Origin: Aestuariivirga litoralis
GTDB lineage: Bacteria; Pseudomonadota; Alphaproteobacteria; Rhizobiales; Aestuariivirgaceae
Assembly: GCF_015714715.1 (NCBI RefSeq)
Contig: NZ_WAHS01000002.1
Span: 620,001 to 684,000 of the forward strand
DNA: 64,000 bases
Direction of reading: 5' to 3'
This document shows positions 8,689 to 58,853 of this stretch, piece by piece; the first letter of the stretch is position 1; every line of letters begins with the position of its first letter. A program made the position numbers and the translations under genes. The notes below the pieces were generated by a model, which worked only from the letters and a program-made list of their open reading frames with translations, was not told the DNA's origin and made no database searches.

Positions 8689-9861
8689 ATGACCCAACGC
8701 GTCGCCGAATTTGCCTTGGCGATCGGCAGCTTTGCCATCGGCACCGGTGAATTCGCCGCCATGGGCTTTCTGCCCAGCGTGGCGGATGGCTGGCAGGTGA
8801 GCGTGCCGCAGGCTGGGCACATCATCAGTGCCTATGCTTTGGGCGTAGTGGTGGGCGCACCGCTGATTGCCGTGTTGGGTGCGCGCCTGCCGCGGCGCAG
8901 CCTGCTTCTTATTTTGATGGCCATGTTTGCTTTGGCCAATCTGGCCAGCGCACTGGCCCCCAGCTTCGGTGCCCTGCTCGGCTTCCGCTTTCTCAGCGGC
9001 CTACCGCATGGTGCCTATTTCGGCGTGGCCTCTTTGGTGGCCGCCGACATGGCGGGTCCGGGTGGCCGCGCCCGCGCCATCGGGCGGGTGATGCTGGGCA
9101 TCACCATTGCAACTCTGGTGGGTACACCTGCGGCCACTTGGGCCGGGCAAGTTCTGGGATGGCGCATGGCCTTTGGCGCCGTGGGCCTTCTCGGTGCGCT
9201 CAGCGTGGCGCTGGTGTTTGCCTGTGTGGCCCATGACCCACCGCATGAAGATGCCAGCCCGCTGCGCGAGCTGGGTGCGCTGCGCAAGCCGCAAGTCTGG
9301 CTCACGCTGGGCATCGCCGCCATCGGCTTTGGCGGCCTGTTCTCGGTGTTCAGCTACATTACACCCACTTTGATCAACGACGCGCAGCTGCCGCCCGCTT
9401 CGGTACCCTTTGCGCTGTGCCTGTTTGGTGCGGGCATGATTACCGGAAATATCATCGGGCCCAAATTCGCCGACAAGGCGCTATTGCCTACCATCTTCTG
9501 GTCCTTGCTGTGGAACATTGGCGTGCTCACCCTGTTTTACTTTGGTGCCCGCCACCAGATCAGCGCACTGCTCTTCATCTTCCTGGTCGGCACCAATTTC
9601 GTGACCGTGCCGGCCTTGCAAACGCGGCTGATGGATGTGGGCCAGGAAGCCCAGACATTATCTGCCGCCCTCAATCACTCGGCCTTCAACATCGCCAATG
9701 CGCTGGGCGCCTGGGCCGGCGGGGCCGCCATTGATGCGGGCTTCGGCTGGAGTTCAACCGGCCTTGTGGGTTCCGCTCTGGGCGTCATGGGTTTTGGCAT
9801 TTTCCTGATCTCGGTTTATGCCGAACGCAGGAGCTTGATCGCGCAGGTCAGCCCCGCCTGA
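8689..9861 (+). CDS. MFS transporter, AraJ/YdhP-like exporter
   Basis: A 390-residue inner-membrane protein with twelve predicted helices of the drug:H+ antiporter type. Family marks are the opening IGSFAIGTGEFAAMGFLPSVA and FLSGLPHGAYFGVASLVAADM, typical of AraJ/YdhP exporters, which are thought to export sugars or drugs. The ATG at 8689 opens the first helix; the 23 upstream residues available in frame are not conserved-looking and overlap the dyad element. No clear Shine-Dalgarno is visible (CCCCCAATCTCTCTA precedes the ATG), so translation may be weak or leaderless. It is convergent with dnaE2 and only 2 bp from it. Confidence 0.88.
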   Translation: MTQRVAEFALAIGSFAIGTGEFAAMGFLPSVADGWQVSVPQAGHIISAYALGVVVGAPLIAVLGARLPRRSLLLILMAMFALANLASALAPSFGALLGFRFLSGLPHGAYFGVASLVAADMAGPGGRARAIGRVMLGITIATLVGTPAATWAGQVLGWRMAFGAVGLLGALSVALVFACVAHDPPHEDASPLRELGALRKPQVWLTLGIAAIGFGGLFSVFSYITPTLINDAQLPPASVPFALCLFGAGMITGNIIGPKFADKALLPTIFWSLLWNIGVLTLFYFGARHQISALLFIFLVGTNFVTVPALQTRLMDVGQEAQTLSAALNHSAFNIANALGAWAGGAAIDAGFGWSSTGLVGSALGVMGFGIFLISVYAERRSLIAQVSPA

Positions 9862-9863
9862 CA

Positions 9864-12800
9864 TCAGTGAAAATCGCGTGACTTGAGCACGCTGCGCACA
9901 TTGCGCGGGTGCTTGTGCATGCTGGATGCCTGGGCCCGCCACGACGGCACATTCTGATCATCTTCTGAAAGCCGGTGCAAGTCCTCGGAACGGTCGAAAA
10001 TCTGTTCAGCGACCAGATGCACCACATTGTCTTCACTGCGCTGCACCTTGCCCTTCACCAGCATCAGCCGCGCCCCCATGATCTCGCGGCGGAACACTTC
10101 GACCAGCCGCGGCCACACCACTACATTGACCACGCTTTCTTCATCGCTGATCGTGGCGAAGACCACCCCGGAATCCCCCGGCATTTGCCGCACCAGCACG
10201 ATGCCGGCACAAGACGCGCGCGTGCCGTCTTTCATCGCATTGATCTCACCCGAGCTTGAAACACCCTCCGACCGGAAAAAATCCCGCAGGAAGAACATCA
10301 GGTGGGCTTTCAGTGAAAGCCGCAGCATCTGATAGTCGGCCACCACCTGTTCGCTCATCGGCATCAGCGGCAAGGGGGCAATCACTTCTTCCGGCTGCTC
10401 CTGTGCATAGGCCGCAGCAAACAGCGGCAGCTCATCATCATCAGGCAGGCGCCGCACCGCCCAGAGAATCTCGCGCCGGTCCTTGTCGATGGATTGGAAG
10501 GAATCAGCCTCAGCCAGAATGATCAACGCGCGTTTCGGCAGCTTGGCCTTCTTGGCCACCTCAGCCACCGTACCATACCGGTTGCCCCGCGCCGAAACCA
10601 AAGCCTTGGCCCAATCTTCCCGGAAGCTATCCACCTGCCGGAAGCCAAGGCGGAGAGCGAGGCCATCGACGCTAGCTTCGAGCGTGTTGTCCCAGTTGCT
10701 GTCATTCACATCAACATGACGGACTTTAACACCTCCACGTTCCTGTGCATCCCGCACAATCTCGGCCGGCGCATAGAACCCCATAGGTTGCGAATTGAGC
10801 AATGACGCAGCGAAGGCGGCCGGATGGTGCTTCTTGAGATAAGCCGAGATGTAAACCAGATGCGCGAAAGCAGCTGCATGGCTTTCCGGAAAACCGTAAG
10901 AGCCGAAGCCCTCGATCTGCCGATAACAGCGCGCAGCGAAATCCGGCTCATAACCGCGACGCACCATGCCATTGATGAACTTGTCTTTGTACTGATCAAT
11001 AGTCCCCAGATTGCGGAACGTGGCCATGGCACGCCGCAGGCCATTGGCTTCTTGGGGCGTGAATTCTGCGGCAATAATTGCCAGCTTCATCGCTTGTTCC
11101 TGAAACAGCGGAACACCAAAGGTTTTACCGAGAAGCCCAACCAACTCGTCTTTATCGCCCATGCCCTCCGCCGGTGAAGGGTATTCAACCGGTTCCTTGC
11201 CACTGCGGCGGCGCAGGTAAGGATGAACCATGTCGCCCTGAATGGGTCCAGGCCTTACAATGGCAACCTCGATGACCAGATCATAAAATTCCTTCGGCTT
11301 GAGGCGCGGCAACATGCTCATCTGTGCCCGGCTTTCAATCTGGAACACGCCGATTGTATCGGCCTTTTGCATCATCTCGTAAACTTCCGGCCGCTCACGC
11401 GGCACCTTCTTCAGATCAAAGTTTATACCTTCGTGAAGCCGCATCAGGTCGAAGGACTTGCGTATACAGGTCAGCATGCCCAGCGCCAGCACATCAACTT
11501 TCAACATGCGCAATGCATCCAGATCATCCTTGTCCCATTCGACAAAAAAACGATCTTTCATTGTGGCGGGGCCAACGGGTACCGTTTCATCCAGCCTGTC
11601 CTGCGTCAGAACAAAGCCCCCCACATGCTGCGATAGATGACGCGGAAAACCGGTAAGTTCATTGGCAAAATAAATGGCCTGTTCAAGGACGGAATTATGC
11701 GGATCAAGCTTGCCCTGTCTCACATTGCCGTCCTTGAGTTCGGTGCCCCAGCTTCCCCAAACACTGCTGGCTATGCGTGCCGTCACATCTTCCATCAGGC
11801 CGAACACTTTGCCCACCTCGCCAATCGCACTGCGCGAACGATAGGAAATTACCGTCGCAGCAAGTGCCGCACGATCGCGGCCATAACGCTTATAGATGAA
11901 TTGGATGACTTCCTCGCGCCGCTCATGTTCAAAGTCGACGTCTATATCAGGGGGTTCCTTGCGTTCTTCGCTGATAAAACGCTCAAACAGCAGCTCGAAA
12001 TGGTTCGGATCGACAGGCGTGATGTCGAGCACAAAACATACTGCGGAGTTTGCAGCAGAGCCACGGCCTTGGCACAGGATGCTTTCGCTGCGGGCAAATT
12101 GCACCACGTCATTGACGGTGAGAAAATACTGGGCGATTTCCATTCTGCCGATCAGAACGAGCTCTTTTTCCAGTGCGATCCTGATTTTTTCGGGAACGGC
12201 CATGCCATAGTGCTTGACGGCACCAGCCCATGCCAGGTCTTCAAGATGCTGTTGCGGCGTCTTCCCCTTGGGCACTGACTCATCCGGGTAATTGTATTTG
12301 AGCTGGTCGAGCGTGAAGGTGATGCGAGTTGCGAAAGATTGCGTCTCCTTTACTGCTTCGGGTGCTGCAGCAAATAGCGCACGCATCTCGCTTTCTGATT
12401 TCAAATGCCGCTCGGCATTGAGATTGAGGAGCAGGCCCGCAGCATCCAGCGTCACATGATTGCGTATGCAGGTCACCACATCCTGTAGCATTCGTCGCTC
12501 CGGCTCATGGTAATGTACATCATTAGTGGCAATCAGCGGCACGCCTATGTCTTCCGCGACAGCCTTCCAGTGCCGCAAGCGGCGTAGATCATCACCGAGA
12601 TAAGGCATGGAGACGCCAAGCCAGGCGCGGTCCGGTGCTGCATGACGCAAGATATTCAAAGCCGCAGCCACGTCTTCATCCCTGGCCACGCGCACATCCG
12701 GTACCTTCTGCCAATCCGAATGCTTTTCATTCCAGGCCTTGGTGGATTGCTCCTCTTCTACCGCATAGCGCAACGGATGCGGCGGCCGCACGATGAGCAG

Positions 12801-13169
12801 CAGGCCCTCCTGCCACCTCAGCAGGTCTTCAAAGGTGAGATAGCACTCGCCCTTGGGTGCGCGCATTTTGCCCGCGCTCAGCAGGCGGCAAAGCCTCCCA
12901 TAAGCGGCACGATCCGTTGGATAGGCCAGAACATCCGGCGCTCCATCGCGAAACACCAGGCGTGCGCCAACCAGCAGGCGAGGCTTGGGCGCTTTCAAAT
13001 CCTTCAAGGCCGCATAGGCGCGCACCACTCCGGCCAGCGAATTGCGGTCGGCAATGCCGATGGCACCGTGGCCGAGCTTTGCCGCCTGCTCGACCAGTTC
13101 CTTCGGATGCGAAGCGCCGCGCAGGAAGGAGTAATTCGTTGTCACAGCAAGCTCGGCAAAAAAGCTCAT
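9864..13169 (-). CDS. dnaE2: Error-prone DNA polymerase III alpha subunit DnaE2
   Basis: A 1101-residue catalytic subunit of the SOS mutasome, which extends past lesions together with ImuA and ImuB. The N-terminal PHP domain reads AELAVTTNYSFLRGASHPKEL and GIADRNSLAGVVRAY. The polymerase palm carries the acidic triad motif PDIDVDFEHERREEVIQFIYKRYGRDRAAL, and the C-terminal OB fold is present (GIVLVRQMPGDSGVVFATI). The ATG at 13169 overlaps the imuB stop as ATGA; the GTG eight codons upstream is within imuB and less likely. Length fits DnaE2 (about 1050-1150 aa), shorter than replicative DnaE1. It is third in the SOS-controlled operon. Confidence 0.97.
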   Translation of the reverse strand: MSFFAELAVTTNYSFLRGASHPKELVEQAAKLGHGAIGIADRNSLAGVVRAYAALKDLKAPKPRLLVGARLVFRDGAPDVLAYPTDRAAYGRLCRLLSAGKMRAPKGECYLTFEDLLRWQEGLLLIVRPPHPLRYAVEEEQSTKAWNEKHSDWQKVPDVRVARDEDVAAALNILRHAAPDRAWLGVSMPYLGDDLRRLRHWKAVAEDIGVPLIATNDVHYHEPERRMLQDVVTCIRNHVTLDAAGLLLNLNAERHLKSESEMRALFAAAPEAVKETQSFATRITFTLDQLKYNYPDESVPKGKTPQQHLEDLAWAGAVKHYGMAVPEKIRIALEKELVLIGRMEIAQYFLTVNDVVQFARSESILCQGRGSAANSAVCFVLDITPVDPNHFELLFERFISEERKEPPDIDVDFEHERREEVIQFIYKRYGRDRAALAATVISYRSRSAIGEVGKVFGLMEDVTARIASSVWGSWGTELKDGNVRQGKLDPHNSVLEQAIYFANELTGFPRHLSQHVGGFVLTQDRLDETVPVGPATMKDRFFVEWDKDDLDALRMLKVDVLALGMLTCIRKSFDLMRLHEGINFDLKKVPRERPEVYEMMQKADTIGVFQIESRAQMSMLPRLKPKEFYDLVIEVAIVRPGPIQGDMVHPYLRRRSGKEPVEYPSPAEGMGDKDELVGLLGKTFGVPLFQEQAMKLAIIAAEFTPQEANGLRRAMATFRNLGTIDQYKDKFINGMVRRGYEPDFAARCYRQIEGFGSYGFPESHAAAFAHLVYISAYLKKHHPAAFAASLLNSQPMGFYAPAEIVRDAQERGGVKVRHVDVNDSNWDNTLEASVDGLALRLGFRQVDSFREDWAKALVSARGNRYGTVAEVAKKAKLPKRALIILAEADSFQSIDKDRREILWAVRRLPDDDELPLFAAAYAQEQPEEVIAPLPLMPMSEQVVADYQMLRLSLKAHLMFFLRDFFRSEGVSSSGEINAMKDGTRASCAGIVLVRQMPGDSGVVFATISDEESVVNVVVWPRLVEVFRREIMGARLMLVKGKVQRSEDNVVHLVAEQIFDRSEDLHRLSEDDQNVPSWRAQASSMHKHPRNVRSVLKSRDFH

Positions 13170-14689
13170 GCAAACACCCCATGCATGAACCATTGCGCCG
13201 GCTGGGCCAGCTCACAATACAACCAATAGCGGTGGCCCGCCTCGTCTTCGGCGCGGTAATAATCGCGCGGAATTTTGCTACCTTCGAGCCGCCACCATTC
13301 CATGGCGATACGCTCCGGCCCCTCCCACAGGGTGAGACCGCGCCATGCCTTGCGCCATTGCAGGCGTAGAGGTTCATGCTCAATCGCGACAGACTCAGGC
13401 CGCGCCAGCAGACGCAAAGGACGACGCGGTGCTTCCACTTTCGCACGGATATTCCGCCATTGCGTTTTCGTCTCATACACCTGTTGCGCCGGCAACAGGA
13501 CCCAGGCCTCTTCCGGCACATGCGTTTCATGCGGATAGATTCGCAATACACGCTCGCGCCCGAAGCGCGCCGCAAGACGATCGGTCAGGAAATCGATTTC
13601 AGCTGCAGCCCGCACTGCTTGATCCAGCGGGACGGCTTCAACCTGCATGCGCTCGACGCGCAGGGCCGCCAGCCGGATCAGATCAAAACCAAAACCGGGA
13701 TCAAGCGGATCGGCCAGCGAGGCCAGCCGCTCGCGGAACAACCGTTCGATCATGGCGGCATCACGTACCGGCGCGCCCGCCTCGACAACGATCCGGCGCA
13801 GCGCCCCATCGGCGCGGAAGAAGCTCGCTTCCAGCCGCCGTGCGCCGGAGCCTTCCTGAACCATCAAGGCACAGAGTTCGGCGCCGATTTCGCGTAAGGC
13901 ATTTTGAATCACCTCCTGCGTGGCAACGGGTTCGGCAAAGCTTTTCGCCGTCCAGTAATCCGGCTCCGGCAGGCGCGGGCTGATCGGCATTTCGCGCTGC
14001 CCCAAAGCCTCGTCGATGCGGGCATGCGTGGCGGCACCAAAGCGCGAGACGATCTCACTGCGCTTGCGGCTGGCCACCTGGCCGATGGTTTTCAGGCCCG
14101 CACGGCGGAAGGCATGCGTGGTCACGGGATCAAGCTGCAAGGCCTCGATGGGCAAGGGTGAGACGGCGTCTCTCTCGGCCCGCTCCGCCACGATCATGCC
14201 ATCGCGGTAGCGCGCCAGTGCATGCGCGGCCAGGGCCGAACCAGCGATGGCCGCCTGCACATTGAGGCCCCTGGCCTTGAGCGCCTTGCGGATTTTATCC
14301 AGCAGCGCCCGCTCGTCTCCGAAAAGATGTGCGGCACCGGCAATATCGAGAATGAGCCCATCCGGCGCATCAAGCGCCACGACCGGGGTGAAACGGTCGC
14401 ACCACTCTGCCATCTGGGAAAGGAGAACCGCATCAGCATGCGGCGATGCTGGCACCACTTCCAGTGCGGGCACCATGGCGCGCGCATTGGCCAGCGGCTG
14501 GCCCACATGCAGCCGCAGCTGGGAAGCCGCCTCGTCCACCGCGCAAAGCCGCAAGGCGCCCTTCACTTTCTCGGCCACCACCAGCGGCGGAGCGTTCAGT
14601 GTCTTTGTTCTATGCCGCTTCAGCCTGTCGGTGGGCAGGCGCGGGAACCACAGTGCCAGAAGCCGTCTGTCTTTCTGCAAAGCGCCCAT
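13166..14689 (-). CDS. imuB: ImuB, Y-family-like DNA polymerase subunit of the SOS mutasome
   Basis: A 507-residue Y-family fold protein known to be catalytically inactive and to act as the hub linking ImuA, DnaE2 and the beta clamp. It shows LLALWFPRLPTDRLKRH at the start and LDAPDGLILDIAGAAHLFGDERALLDKI, the counterpart of the Y-family palm. A clamp-binding-like stretch lies in the C-terminal third. The ATG at 14689 opens the conserved N-terminus and lies 80 bp inside the end of imuA; the longer frame from 14731 adds residues that do not look like the family. Confidence 0.93.
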   Translation of the reverse strand: MGALQKDRRLLALWFPRLPTDRLKRHRTKTLNAPPLVVAEKVKGALRLCAVDEAASQLRLHVGQPLANARAMVPALEVVPASPHADAVLLSQMAEWCDRFTPVVALDAPDGLILDIAGAAHLFGDERALLDKIRKALKARGLNVQAAIAGSALAAHALARYRDGMIVAERAERDAVSPLPIEALQLDPVTTHAFRRAGLKTIGQVASRKRSEIVSRFGAATHARIDEALGQREMPISPRLPEPDYWTAKSFAEPVATQEVIQNALREIGAELCALMVQEGSGARRLEASFFRADGALRRIVVEAGAPVRDAAMIERLFRERLASLADPLDPGFGFDLIRLAALRVERMQVEAVPLDQAVRAAAEIDFLTDRLAARFGRERVLRIYPHETHVPEEAWVLLPAQQVYETKTQWRNIRAKVEAPRRPLRLLARPESVAIEHEPLRLQWRKAWRGLTLWEGPERIAMEWWRLEGSKIPRDYYRAEDEAGHRYWLYCELAQPAQWFMHGVFA

Positions 14690-15311
14690 TGTCACAACTC
14701 CACTCAAAAACCCACTGCCCCGTCCGGCCATTGCGGTTGCGGATCAGGCTCGCATCAAAAACCGGCTGGCCCCAATTCTCACCCGCAAAGGCAGAAGGTG
14801 CCGCCTTCACCAGCCAGCGCGTTTCCGCCGCACTGGCCTGAGGCGCCGCGCCAAAGCGCAACAGCACGGCCGGCACGCCCTGCTTCTCGCAGGCCAGAAC
14901 CAGACGTCGGCTCGCCGTAAGATCAAGAATTTTAGGACTGCCGATCACTTCAATGATGACAGCGCCGAGAGCACGGCAAGTCAGCGCATCGCCCGATGCG
15001 CGCAATGCATCTTCGGCATGGCCCACCGAGAGCAAAATCAGCTTCGCAGGATCAAGCCCGAACTCGAACAATCCAGTGGGACACAGGCCGCCATGTTCCT
15101 GCGCGGCAAAGCTTTGCCCGATCCATAGCAGGTGCTTTCTTTCCGCCAAGCGCAAGGCCAGACCCGCGGTAAAGGCCGCCGCAGTAACCTCATGCCCCGG
15201 CACAGCAAAGACTTCATGCAGCGCCCCGCGCCGCACGCCACCTTTCAGCTCGGCATCGGCTGGTGCGTATCCGAGAGGCAAAATGGCTTGTTTCTGGAAC
15301 TGATCCCGCAT
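14610..15311 (-). CDS. imuA: ImuA, RecA-like SOS mutasome protein
   Basis: A 233-residue RecA/SulA-like protein needed with ImuB and DnaE2 for damage-induced mutagenesis. The fold is shown by GVRRGALHEVFAVPGHEVTAAAFTAGLALRLAER near the start and by the predicted beta strands HLLWIGQS and LILLSVGHAEDAL. The annotated start is the ATG at 15311. A longer frame to 15392 would place the SOS box inside the gene, which argues strongly for the shorter form. It is first of three overlapping genes, and its 3' end overlaps imuB by 80 bp. Confidence 0.92.
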   Translation of the reverse strand: MRDQFQKQAILPLGYAPADAELKGGVRRGALHEVFAVPGHEVTAAAFTAGLALRLAERKHLLWIGQSFAAQEHGGLCPTGLFEFGLDPAKLILLSVGHAEDALRASGDALTCRALGAVIIEVIGSPKILDLTASRRLVLACEKQGVPAVLLRFGAAPQASAAETRWLVKAAPSAFAGENWGQPVFDASLIRNRNGRTGQWVFEWSCDNGRFAERQTASGTVVPAPAHRQAEAA

Positions 15312-55213: not shown

Positions 55214-55645
55214 TCAACCAGACTGCGGCAGGGACGGAATCCAAACATACCCGTCATCATCCAGGATCATGCATTCACGCATGCCATGCGGCTTGTCCAT
55301 GCTGCCCGCCAGAACGGTAAAGCCTAACGCCCGCGCCCGCGCTTCTGCCTGGTCCGGGTTCACCGCATAGGCACGCAGCTCGACGCCTACGCCGCGCGGG
55401 CTGTCCGCCGTCAAACTGCCGATCAATGGATTGTTCCGGTAAGTATCGTCCACATGCAGCATGAAATCGTCGCCGCACAGGCGCATGGCGGCAAATTTGT
55501 CGGTACGGAACCGTGTCTCCGCACTTAGAATCTCGGTCACGAAAAAATGCGCCCGGTCAATGTCGCGCACGATGATGTTGATGCCCAGCCCCTGAAGGGC
55601 TGCACCATAGGCCATGGCGGAGGGTGGGTTGTCCTGCTCGGTCAT
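55214..55645 (-). CDS. VOC-superfamily (glyoxalase/bleomycin-resistance-like) protein
   Basis: A 143-residue vicinal-oxygen-chelate protein with the two beta-alpha-beta-beta-beta units: LQGLGINIIVRDIDRAHFFVTEIL and a second half GVGVELRAYAVNPDQAEARARALGFTVLAGSMDKPHGMRECMILDDDGYVWIPS. Metal ligands may be the His of MLHVDD and Glu of GVELRAY. The substrate is not known. It lies between gbcB and arsR and is transcribed with neither for certain. Confidence 0.83.
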   Translation of the reverse strand: MTEQDNPPSAMAYGAALQGLGINIIVRDIDRAHFFVTEILSAETRFRTDKFAAMRLCGDDFMLHVDDTYRNNPLIGSLTADSPRGVGVELRAYAVNPDQAEARARALGFTVLAGSMDKPHGMRECMILDDDGYVWIPSLPQSG

Positions 55646-58000: not shown

Positions 58001-58016
58001 AACGTCCTCGCAAGTT

Positions 58017-58067
58017 CCATGCTTCCCCGCATGGGTGGAATAAATATTACGACGGACTAATGCGGGG
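58017..58067 (-). promoter_or_regulatory. Two-state expression platform between cobalamin aptamer and gbcA
   Basis: On the minus strand CCCCGCA (58061-58067) can pair with TGCGGGG (58025-58031), or TGCGGGG can be used by a local hairpin CCATGC/GCATGG (58017-58034). The two are mutually exclusive. The local hairpin ends about 16 bases before the gbcA ATG, just before the GAGGAC Shine-Dalgarno. No T-run follows, so control of translation is more likely than transcription termination. Confidence 0.55.
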
Positions 58068-58098
58068 CTGGGTGATGAACCTGGCACGCGCATCGAAA

Positions 58099-58300
58099 CA
58101 CCGCCCGCCGCGGTTCGACTATATGCAAGGCTGGTTTCCGGGCTTTAGCGAGCTCCTCCCAGGATCAGCCGCAGCGCCTTCCCAGGTTAAACCCAGTGGC
58201 ATCAATTGCAGCCTTTTCTCTCGCCTACCGTTGCGGGGGCAGCGTTGGTTTAAGCCAACTTCCCAATTCTCCGCTGTCTCCAGCGGCACCTTACGCGGTG
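58099..58300 (-). ncRNA. Cobalamin riboswitch
   Basis: Read on the minus strand all core parts are present in order: P1 arm CACCGC (58295-58300), GGTGCC (58285-58290), the signature CTGCCCCCGCAACGGTA (58226-58242), GCCACTG (58194-58200), GGGAAGGC (58176-58183), the B12-box-like GCCCGGAAACCAGCC (58129-58143) and the closing P1 arm GCGGTG (58099-58104). The nearest downstream gene on this strand is gbcA, about 100 bases away; on the other strand nothing reads from it. Confidence 0.92.
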
Positions 58301-58381
58301 AAAGCTAACATGTGATTTTGCGACGGCACGGATAAAAGCGACATGCGGAATGAAATCCGCGCGAGAATGCGAGTGGCTTTG

Positions 58382-58789
58382 TTAGTAGCGGCTGACCGAA
58401 AGATGCTCGGCCGTATCTTCGCGCCAGGCCAGCGTGCAGGAGCGCGCGGCCTGCGCCACATCCATGCCCTTTTCGCGCACGGCAAGCAGGAAAAACGCCG
58501 TCATGTCTTCAGCCAGTGCACCAATGTCGCAGGTGTCTTCATCTTCCAGCGCACCGGCAATGCGATTGGCCGCAGAAGCCATCAGCGCCTGGGCTTTCTG
58601 ACGGCCTATATTGCAGGCCGAGCGCCAGCTCTCCAACAAGTCAGAGCGTTTCAGTTCGATCAGCACATCTTCTTGCAGCACCAGAGGAATATTGCCCCGG
58701 CTGCGGATCTCACGCACCGGAGAACCCGTCTTATCCGAGACTGGGCAGGAAATGATAAAGCCAGTTGCCAAGGGAAATTGATCTCTCAT
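58382..58789 (-). CDS. Hypothetical protein
   Basis: A 135-residue soluble protein that I do not recognise. An N-terminal strand-rich part (FIISCPVSDKTGSPVREIRSRGNIPLVLQED) is followed by alpha helices (LLESWRSACNIGRQKAQALMASAANRIAGAL and DIGALAEDMTAFFLLAVREKGMDVAQAARSC). GGGTGAG precedes the ATG at 58789; 13 residues more are possible upstream. It lies between iolB and the gbcA riboswitch. It is downstream of iolB, past a stable hairpin, on the same strand. Confidence 0.6.
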   Translation of the reverse strand: MRDQFPLATGFIISCPVSDKTGSPVREIRSRGNIPLVLQEDVLIELKRSDLLESWRSACNIGRQKAQALMASAANRIAGALEDEDTCDIGALAEDMTAFFLLAVREKGMDVAQAARSCTLAWREDTAEHLSVSRY

Positions 58790-58813
58790 CGCACTCACCC
58801 CGCGCCTCAAACG

Positions 58814-58853
58814 CAGGCGCACACTCACTCACAGGAATGAAAGAGTGCGCCTG
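58814..58853. other. Long-armed inverted repeat between iolB and the hypothetical gene
   Basis: CAGGCGCAC (58814-58822) and GTGCGCCTG (58845-58853) are perfect 9-base arms, extendable by CTC/GAG after a two-base bulge. No T-run follows on the minus strand. It may stabilise the iolB mRNA 3' end or terminate it with Rho. Confidence 0.5.

Follow-up and report, generated by a model that had tools for sequence, protein, structure and literature searches.

Why should a vitamin B12-sensing RNA precede an operon whose predicted business is the demethylation of betaine-like compounds? The question is raised by a 64,000-nucleotide stretch of the Aestuariivirga litoralis genome (hereafter ‘the window’), where a cobalamin riboswitch stands in front of genes for a Rieske oxygenase and its reductase partner. 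An earlier note on this DNA had read the pair as gbcAB and sought the answer in the supply of precursors for corrin synthesis. We favour a different answer, and think it probable as a whole: that the operon would encode a riboswitch-repressed, B12-free N-demethylase, replacing the MtgBCD route and thereby sparing corrinoid.

A full-length cobalamin aptamer

The Rfam covariance model for cobalamin riboswitches (RF00174) aligns from end to end with the minus strand of the window (model positions 1–189 of 189), at 95.4 bits, where the gathering score is 31.5; nothing else in the 64 kb reaches an Rfam gathering threshold (Table 1). In the Rfam alignment and in the sequence itself, the P1 helix, the core strands and the B12 box are all intact. 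The aptamer that the earlier note had described on the minus strand, with its core elements and P1, is thus borne out by the Rfam search which that note had proposed; the range given for it (58,017–58,300) does cover the aptamer and most of the leader, but misses 8 nt at the aptamer's 5′ end. A purpose-built covariance model, R1—trained on 23 leaders, that of the window among them—gives 143.4 bits. By predicted folding energy, the aptamer does not stand out from shuffled sequences (z 0.69; 156 of 200 shuffles equally or more stable), and support for the riboswitch therefore comes from the covariance model and from covariation (see below), not from stability.

Across the whole genome (G000; 3.33 Mb, 4 contigs) there are three matches to RF00174, which lie before a cobW-like gene, a bluB-like gene—both names read from translations—and the Rieske operon. 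As a sequence feature, we regard the riboswitch as certain.

Table 1. Features of the riboswitch–Rieske locus (positions are those of the window; all features lie on the minus strand)
Feature	Position	Strand	Basis
Cobalamin riboswitch aptamer (RF00174)	58112..58308	(-)	95.4 bits, E 1.8e-22
P1 helix, 5′ arm GUAAGG	58289..58294	(-)	Sequence and covariation alignment, helix 1
P1 helix, 3′ arm CCUUGC, immediately after the B12 box	58125..58130	(-)	Sequence and covariation alignment, helix 1
C-rich L5 GCCCCC, candidate partner of L13	58235..58240	(-)	Sequence
Candidate P13 hairpin ACCGC-GGCGG-GCGGU, loop complementary to L5	58100..58114	(-)	Sequence; kissing loop putative
Hairpin CCCCGCAU/AUGCGGGG upstream of the ribosome binding site	58025..58067	(-)	Sequence and folding; function putative
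Shine-Dalgarno GAGGA, 4 nt before ATG 58000	58005..58009	(-)	Sequence
Rieske oxygenase, Stc2/GbcA-type N-demethylase, 412 aa	56762..58000	(-)	Profile and structure-sequence matches
FAD/NAD/[2Fe-2S] reductase partner, GbcB-like, 358 aa	55686..56762	(-)	Profile matches
143-aa ORF, possible third operon gene	55214..55645	(-)	Operon membership suggested by strand and 40-nt gap only
148-aa ORF directly upstream of the riboswitch (beyond it, iolB)	58382..58828	(-)	No Pfam or NCBIfam match for the ORF

The leader and its candidate expression platform

A leader of 111 nt separates the end of the aptamer from the ATG of the Rieske gene. A kissing loop formed upon ligand binding would call for a C-rich L5 and a G-rich hairpin loop downstream of the B12 box, and the window offers candidates for both (P5, L5 and L13 in the usual helix naming). 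A scan for hairpins past the aptamer ranked one with a G-rich five-base loop first at 20 of 29 loci, and a different hairpin at nine. Further down the leader lies a second hairpin, at 58,067–58,025, the 5′ arm of which contains a CCCGC (58,066–58,062) that could pair alternatively with GCGGG at 58,108–58,104. The earlier note had placed a mutually exclusive helix pair before the ribosome binding site: this is borne out in part, by the candidate P13, this hairpin and the alternative pairing, but P13 did not form when the leader of the window was folded without the aptamer.

When 27 leaders were folded over the stretch between B12 box and start codon, the structures were clade-specific and revealed no common mechanism for hiding the Shine-Dalgarno sequence; in 10 of the 27 the start position was off, falling on a non-start codon. 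Since no terminator-like site was found on the operon strand—nor, in the same scan, any sigma-70-like promoter—we infer that control is translational; most likely, binding of AdoCbl would reduce translation of the Rieske operon, although folding favoured neither of the two states.

A predicted betaine-type N-demethylase

The start of the oxygenase gene was set by its Shine-Dalgarno sequence and by alignment, the mechanical open reading frame beginning at 58,093. It overlaps the reductase gene by one base, and both reading frames are intact; the 143-aa ORF that follows has no Pfam or NCBIfam match. Elsewhere in the window, three adjacent genes (9,864–15,311) appear to us, judging from their translations, to resemble dnaE2-imuB-imuA.

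Among NCBIfam models, the oxygenase comes closest to GbcA (NF058607, 503.4 bits) and the reductase to NF058606 (372.7 bits), each falling under its cut-off (670 and 500, respectively); no homolog in any of 57 homolog-bearing genomes reaches that of GbcA. The designation gbcA proper, as given in the earlier note, is hence not upheld. The nearest solved structures are 3vca and 4qup (570 bits), which we take to be the stachydrine demethylase Stc2, followed by 3n0q (564 bits), with some 400 residues aligned (residues 4–409 of the oxygenase). Rieske oxygenases are recognised by a CxH...CxxH cluster motif and an HxxxxH iron site; read by eye, the window protein has the same residues at both as the Stc2-type structures. 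It is also 59% identical to Sinorhizobium meliloti proteins, one of which (H24) has stc4 and stc3 annotated adjacent to it; no stachydrine catabolic partners were recognised among the window neighbours. By kinship, then, the oxygenase is likely a betaine-type N-demethylase, with glycine betaine its likely substrate, an assignment that is less than assured because the GbcA cut-off is missed and Stc2-type structures are closest.

Conservation of the association in relatives

Searching up to 350 nt upstream of homologous Rieske genes, R1 places an aptamer in 32 of 89 sources (the window plus 88 loci), 30 of which score above 100 bits; the two weak ones are L029 (46.5 bits) and L084 (34.1 bits). 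As 21 of the 32 had been part of the R1 training set, the Rfam model carries more weight, and RF00174 confirms an aptamer beside the Rieske gene in 31 of the 32. In whole-genome runs, at least 27 of the 32 genomes have such a match among those listed, at 99.8–125.9 bits; on the remaining loci, RF00174 gives the 95.4 bits of the window, 80.9 for L020 and, at threshold, 31.8 for L029 and 32.0 for L084, whilst the aptamer of L097 has R1 as its sole support. Over 40 R1 matches, 94.5% of cells are paired and 29 of 42 base pairs have changed on both sides, with two-sided changes in 290 cells against a shuffled mean of 73.9 (none of 500 shuffles as high; slid controls 25–68), figures that refer to an alignment fitted to R1 in which eight of the 40 rows are riboswitches of other genes.

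Of four plasmid records fetched, three carry the aptamer before the Rieske gene: Gemmobacter fulvus p2 (167 bits), Cereibacter azotoformans pORIO2 (141 bits) and Phaeobacter gallaeciensis pP128_c (173 bits). None was found before the Rieske homolog of S. meliloti RCAM1750, where stc4 and stc3 are annotated adjacent to the gene, nor, by R1, at the S. meliloti Stc-type locus L124. The association of aptamer with Rieske and reductase genes, whose conservation the earlier note had named as a check, is conserved in relatives. Two of the three outcomes that would have refuted that note, lack of a significant covariance-model hit and absence of the association from all relatives, are thus not observed. 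Two irregularities were seen in passing: in Rubellimicrobium thermophilum DSM 16684 the assembly shows a Rieske gene (L032, 6,001–7,238) whose 5′ part is apparently frame-broken, although its riboswitch is intact, and the Paracoccus kondratievae locus L026 has a match to Rfam SECIS_3 (RF01989; 80.4 bits) at 9,071–9,129.

Distribution and history

Homologs of the oxygenase at E 1e-80 or better are found in eight of 80 genomes (79 relatives and, counted with them, the genome itself). Within the genus there is one among 36 other genomes (G020), at a locus without the riboswitch. When 90 homologs are placed in a tree, the window protein groups with those of Rhodobacterales, to which it is up to 83% identical (345 columns), a placement that suggests a recent transfer; the window operon is likely a recent acquisition. 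Presence or absence of the riboswitch takes nine changes on the tree, versus 26.4 in shuffles. The genes that have it belong to one group of roseobacters, to another of Rhodobacter type, and to G047, a genome of the same family as that of the window.

Among the riboswitch-free branches is a thirteen-row clade of Paracoccus. Ten Paracoccus genomes with a riboswitch-free locus were tested for the B12-dependent markers discussed below: eight lack both MttB and DUF1638 (G110, G113, G115–G120) and two have both (G112, G114). A gene for a flavoprotein of OYE/FadH type (family membership checked for L049), likely StcD/DgcA, occurs at 15 riboswitch-free loci, 11 of them within one riboswitch-free clade of 21 rows; it is found at none of 29 named riboswitch loci, with flanks of up to 6 kb.

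Gene neighbourhoods of the riboswitch loci

Genes at the loci were called with a codon-model caller, plain longest-ORF calling having set many on the wrong strand; 15 of the 32 riboswitch loci were gone through one gene at a time, the others by gene clusters only. In Roseibium aquae (L067) and R. hamelinense (L097), riboswitch, Rieske and reductase genes are divergent from a set that encodes four proteins: one MtgC-like (PF02607 and PF02310), one DUF1638, one pterin-binding and MtgD-like, and one RACo/RamA-like. The Pfam assignments come from L067. On its other side the operon has a gene for formate–tetrahydrofolate ligase. R. aquae in fact has two homologs: that of L067, with its riboswitch, beside the mtgC cluster, and a riboswitch-free one (L050) whose neighbours, read from translations, are an OYE-type flavoprotein and a TetR-like gene.

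In G047, four riboswitches lie within about 12 kb, before a second Rieske gene, metE (1110 bits, above cut-off), nrdA-nrdB and the Rieske operon; the second oxygenase is divergent in sequence, with 277 bits to the GbcA model (L121, 4,737–6,246; G047:C7:943231–944739). Three riboswitches are likewise seen at L022, the first before ABC transporter genes (substrate assignment unsure), another before the operon, which is followed by genes for homocysteine S-methyltransferase and metH, and the third before nrdH/nrdI-like genes. Genes of nrd type occur within the locus at L022, L023, L055, L068 and L083 (NrdE and NrdF confirmed by NCBIfam for L068), and also beside the operon at five riboswitch-free Paracoccus loci (L034, L035, L038, L039 and L040), the genomes of L034 and L038 having neither MttB nor DUF1638. 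At the Cereibacter locus L123 the operon is adjoined by metH, and cobalt transport genes are nearby at L029 (CbiM confirmed) and L055. No B12 link was evident at L018, L030, L066 and L070, which are among the loci read.

The substrate itself is the point at which the neighbourhoods bear on an alternative. It may be proline betaine, a carnitine-like compound or some other quaternary amine rather than glycine betaine; this is a serious contender, if one against which we lean, and it overlaps with our preferred explanation, the logic of the riboswitch being the same. It would account for Stc2-type entries being the best structure matches, for the kinship with S. meliloti proteins next to stc genes and for the missed GbcA cut-off; the multiple MttB paralogs of riboswitch genomes, of which there are up to 16, and the two different Rieske genes under riboswitches in G047 also speak for it. 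On the other hand, the OYE/FadH-type cluster of the 15 riboswitch-free loci is absent from all 29 named riboswitch loci (flanks of up to 6 kb), and in Phaeobacter (L125) an annotated glycine betaine ABC transporter gene lies about 3 kb from the operon.

A putative B12-dependent counterpart in the same genomes

According to a 2025 study, the breakdown of glycine betaine in a roseobacter depends on a methyltransferase of cobalamin type (PMC12478193). Ruegeria pomeroyi is reported there to need MtgC and MtgD both for growth on glycine betaine and for methionine synthesis; MtgC, a cobalamin-binding protein, is common to the two processes, and an mtgC mutant fails to grow on glycine betaine whether or not methionine is added (PMC12478193). 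MtgB (PF06253) is the proposed betaine methyltransferase, with DUF1638 and RamA proposed for reactivation; gbcAB homologs are described as rare in ocean data, and canonical metE as absent from most genomes with MtgBCD (PMC12478193). In the main text of that paper, ‘riboswitch’ occurs a single time, in the title of a reference.

Proteins of the MttB family (PF06253) are encoded by all 32 riboswitch genomes, versus 12 of 22 whose examined locus has none (L056 left out; Fisher p 2.7e-5), and DUF1638 by all 32 versus 14 of 25 (p 1.6e-5), p values which treat as independent rows that are not. The riboswitch-free genomes were hand-picked before the result, from 21 of 51 named riboswitch-free loci and from further relatives; ‘without riboswitch’ refers to one examined locus, several of these genomes holding further homologs. 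Across six independent pairs on the tree, about two agree with an association between riboswitch and MtgBCD markers, none contradicts it and four show no difference (median p 0.5). The association is thus suggestive, one-way—the riboswitch implies the counterpart—and confounded by ancestry.

The number of MttB copies per riboswitch genome ranges from 1 to 16, with five in the genome of the window. Four genomes (G092, G093, G095 and G039) hold 13 to 16 copies of PF06253 each, which suggests many B12-dependent demethylations in these organisms. Within 6 kb of each other, at C1:1262000–1281000, the window's own genome encodes DUF1638, an MtgC-like corrinoid protein (201 bits to MtgC_2, under the cut-off of 370) and a protein of the betaine–homocysteine S-methyltransferase family that scores over its model cut-off; the genome would accordingly appear to encode a B12-dependent counterpart of the Rieske operon, a role that we infer from these genes. 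Full-length MetE was found in one of 45 genomes (MetE and whole-genome Rfam runs covered 45 of the 57, all save G037, G051, G057, G069 and G121–G128), so most of these cells would need B12 for methionine anyway.

The earlier note had held that the target is no B12-independent isoenzyme. The genome context of relatives points the other way: the Rieske operon is likely an O2-dependent, B12-independent counterpart of demethylation by MttB and MtgC.

Discussion

Our best explanation builds on what is observed, namely the aptamer, the operon, their conservation, their co-occurrence with the counterpart and the gene neighbourhoods. While B12 is plentiful, a riboswitch of AdoCbl type would keep the Rieske operon off, probably at the level of translation. 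The product of the operon is predicted to be an O2-dependent, B12-free quaternary-amine N-demethylase, acting most likely on glycine betaine or proline betaine, and would substitute for the route formed in the same genomes by the MttB-family protein MtgB, the corrinoid protein MtgC and MtgD. Upon a fall in B12, the operon would be derepressed and betaine demethylation would shift to the oxygenase; scarce corrinoid, the carrier MtgC being common to methionine synthesis, may in this way be left to methionine synthase and to other enzymes that the cell cannot do without. With MetE almost absent and B12 needed anyway, the operon looks like a sparing device rather than a full B12-free alternative. 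That said, around half of the riboswitch-free genomes also carry the B12-dependent markers, including G020 of the same genus, and many riboswitch loci (in the gene-by-gene reading of 15 of the 32) have no B12-related neighbour; both observations count against the explanation. So do the confounding of the co-occurrence by ancestry, the near-absence of MetE, the missed GbcA cut-off, the threshold-level aptamers of L029 and L084 and, from R. pomeroyi and ocean data, the failure of the mtgC mutant on glycine betaine and the rarity of gbcAB homologs (PMC12478193).

A broader proposal is nearly balanced in our estimation, tipping slightly to the negative: that alphaproteobacteria with one corrinoid protein for both methionine and betaine use riboswitches to shift whole classes of quaternary-amine demethylation to oxygenases at low B12, the fate of the methyl group changing from methyl-folate to formaldehyde and turnover becoming O2-dependent. 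It is the two different Rieske genes under riboswitches in G047 that raise the idea of a B12-sparing programme across whole substrate classes.

The earlier note's own account—that glycine from betaine feeds 5-aminolevulinate by the C4 pathway, and hence corrin synthesis, with B12 repressing the operon as end-product feedback—strikes us as improbable. Betaine does stimulate industrial B12 production, an effect tied to the supply of 5-aminolevulinate (PMC8123684), and cobalt transport or cob genes adjoin some loci (L029, L055). However, glycine betaine would yield dimethylglycine by way of either the Rieske pair or MtgBCD so that, if it is the substrate, glycine supply needs no B12-sensitive choice at the first step; nor is a later demethylation step seen in the window operon. 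Neighbours of nrd, metE, metH or mtg type are present at nine loci (L022, L023, L055, L068, L083, L067, L097, G047 and L123), as against clear cobalt transport at two, and overall little was found to favour such a feed over the reading of the operon as an isozyme.

We give very little credence to a role for the Rieske pair in B12 biosynthesis, salvage or corrinoid modification, to which the riboswitch control, the cobalt transport genes (L029, L055) and the riboswitch-preceded ABC transporter of uncertain substrate (L022) might point, given the strong N-demethylase kinship, which spans 400 residues and extends to those of the Rieske cluster and the iron site, the catabolic-type flavoprotein adjoining riboswitch-free homologs, and a presence in just eight of 80 genomes (own counted), which is not expected of a step in the B12 pathway. 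It is just as hard to credit that the aptamer is the non-functional relic of a transferred operon: the Rhodobacterales kinship, the single, riboswitch-free homolog among the 36 genomes of the genus and the decayed look of the L029 and L084 aptamers would fit, but in the window the core, P1, the L5 and P13 candidates and the reading frames are intact, at 95 bits.

The regulatory logic of the sparing explanation is a known one; the pairing of riboswitch and Rieske demethylase appears to be new. A search of the literature on cobalamin riboswitches with betaine or Rieske demethylases, covering mostly titles and the beginnings of abstracts and with subscription papers largely outside its scope, found no report of such an operon. 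Rodionov et al. 2003 (J Biol Chem) may, reportedly, list a B12-element operon of alphaproteobacteria named ‘ardX-frdX’, its function then unknown, which is said to comprise an aromatic-ring dioxygenase and a ferredoxin-type protein; should this be the Rieske operon, the association itself has been described before, and novelty is confined to the explanation. In the sea, glycine betaine is of major importance as an osmolyte and nutrient; if our explanation is true, its turnover at low B12 would continue with changed chemistry and oxygen demand, and a riboswitch target outside B12 synthesis and transport would be explained.

Comparison with known systems

In its full-length covariance match, core motifs, B12 box and P1 helix, and in a candidate L5/P13 arrangement, the window element is like RF00174 riboswitches at large; its target differs from their usual ones, being a Rieske N-demethylase operon and not a gene of B12 synthesis or transport, or metE/nrd. 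‘Isozymes of B12-dependent enzymes’ is nonetheless a category of cobalamin-riboswitch targets already described (PMC3766115), and the operon resembles riboswitch-controlled metE and nrdAB/nrdHIEF in that a B12-free enzyme would stand beside a B12-dependent counterpart; in G047 these are found in tandem, each with its own riboswitch. Such grouping with members of the metE/nrd class is seen in relatives only (the G047 island, the nrd neighbours) and is absent in the window. Unlike those isozymes, the Rieske operon is by prediction catabolic and oxygen-dependent, and would spare B12 in cells where MetE is mostly absent.

At the level of the enzyme, the oxygenase is like the Stc2 structures 3vca and 4qup and the related 3n0q over about 400 residues (564–570 bits), with the same Rieske and iron-site residues. 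Unlike the riboswitch-free Stc-type locus of S. meliloti (L124, by R1), the window locus has a riboswitch and lacks stc3-type neighbours. GbcAB is the best NCBIfam match of both subunits, yet at scores (503 and 373) that stay below the cut-offs of 670 and 500. With MtgBCD (PMC12478193), finally, the window pair is predicted to share the first step, betaine demethylation, in the same genomes; whereas MtgBCD is B12-dependent and passes the methyl group to folate (PMC12478193), the window pair would, going by its family, use O2 and set free formaldehyde.
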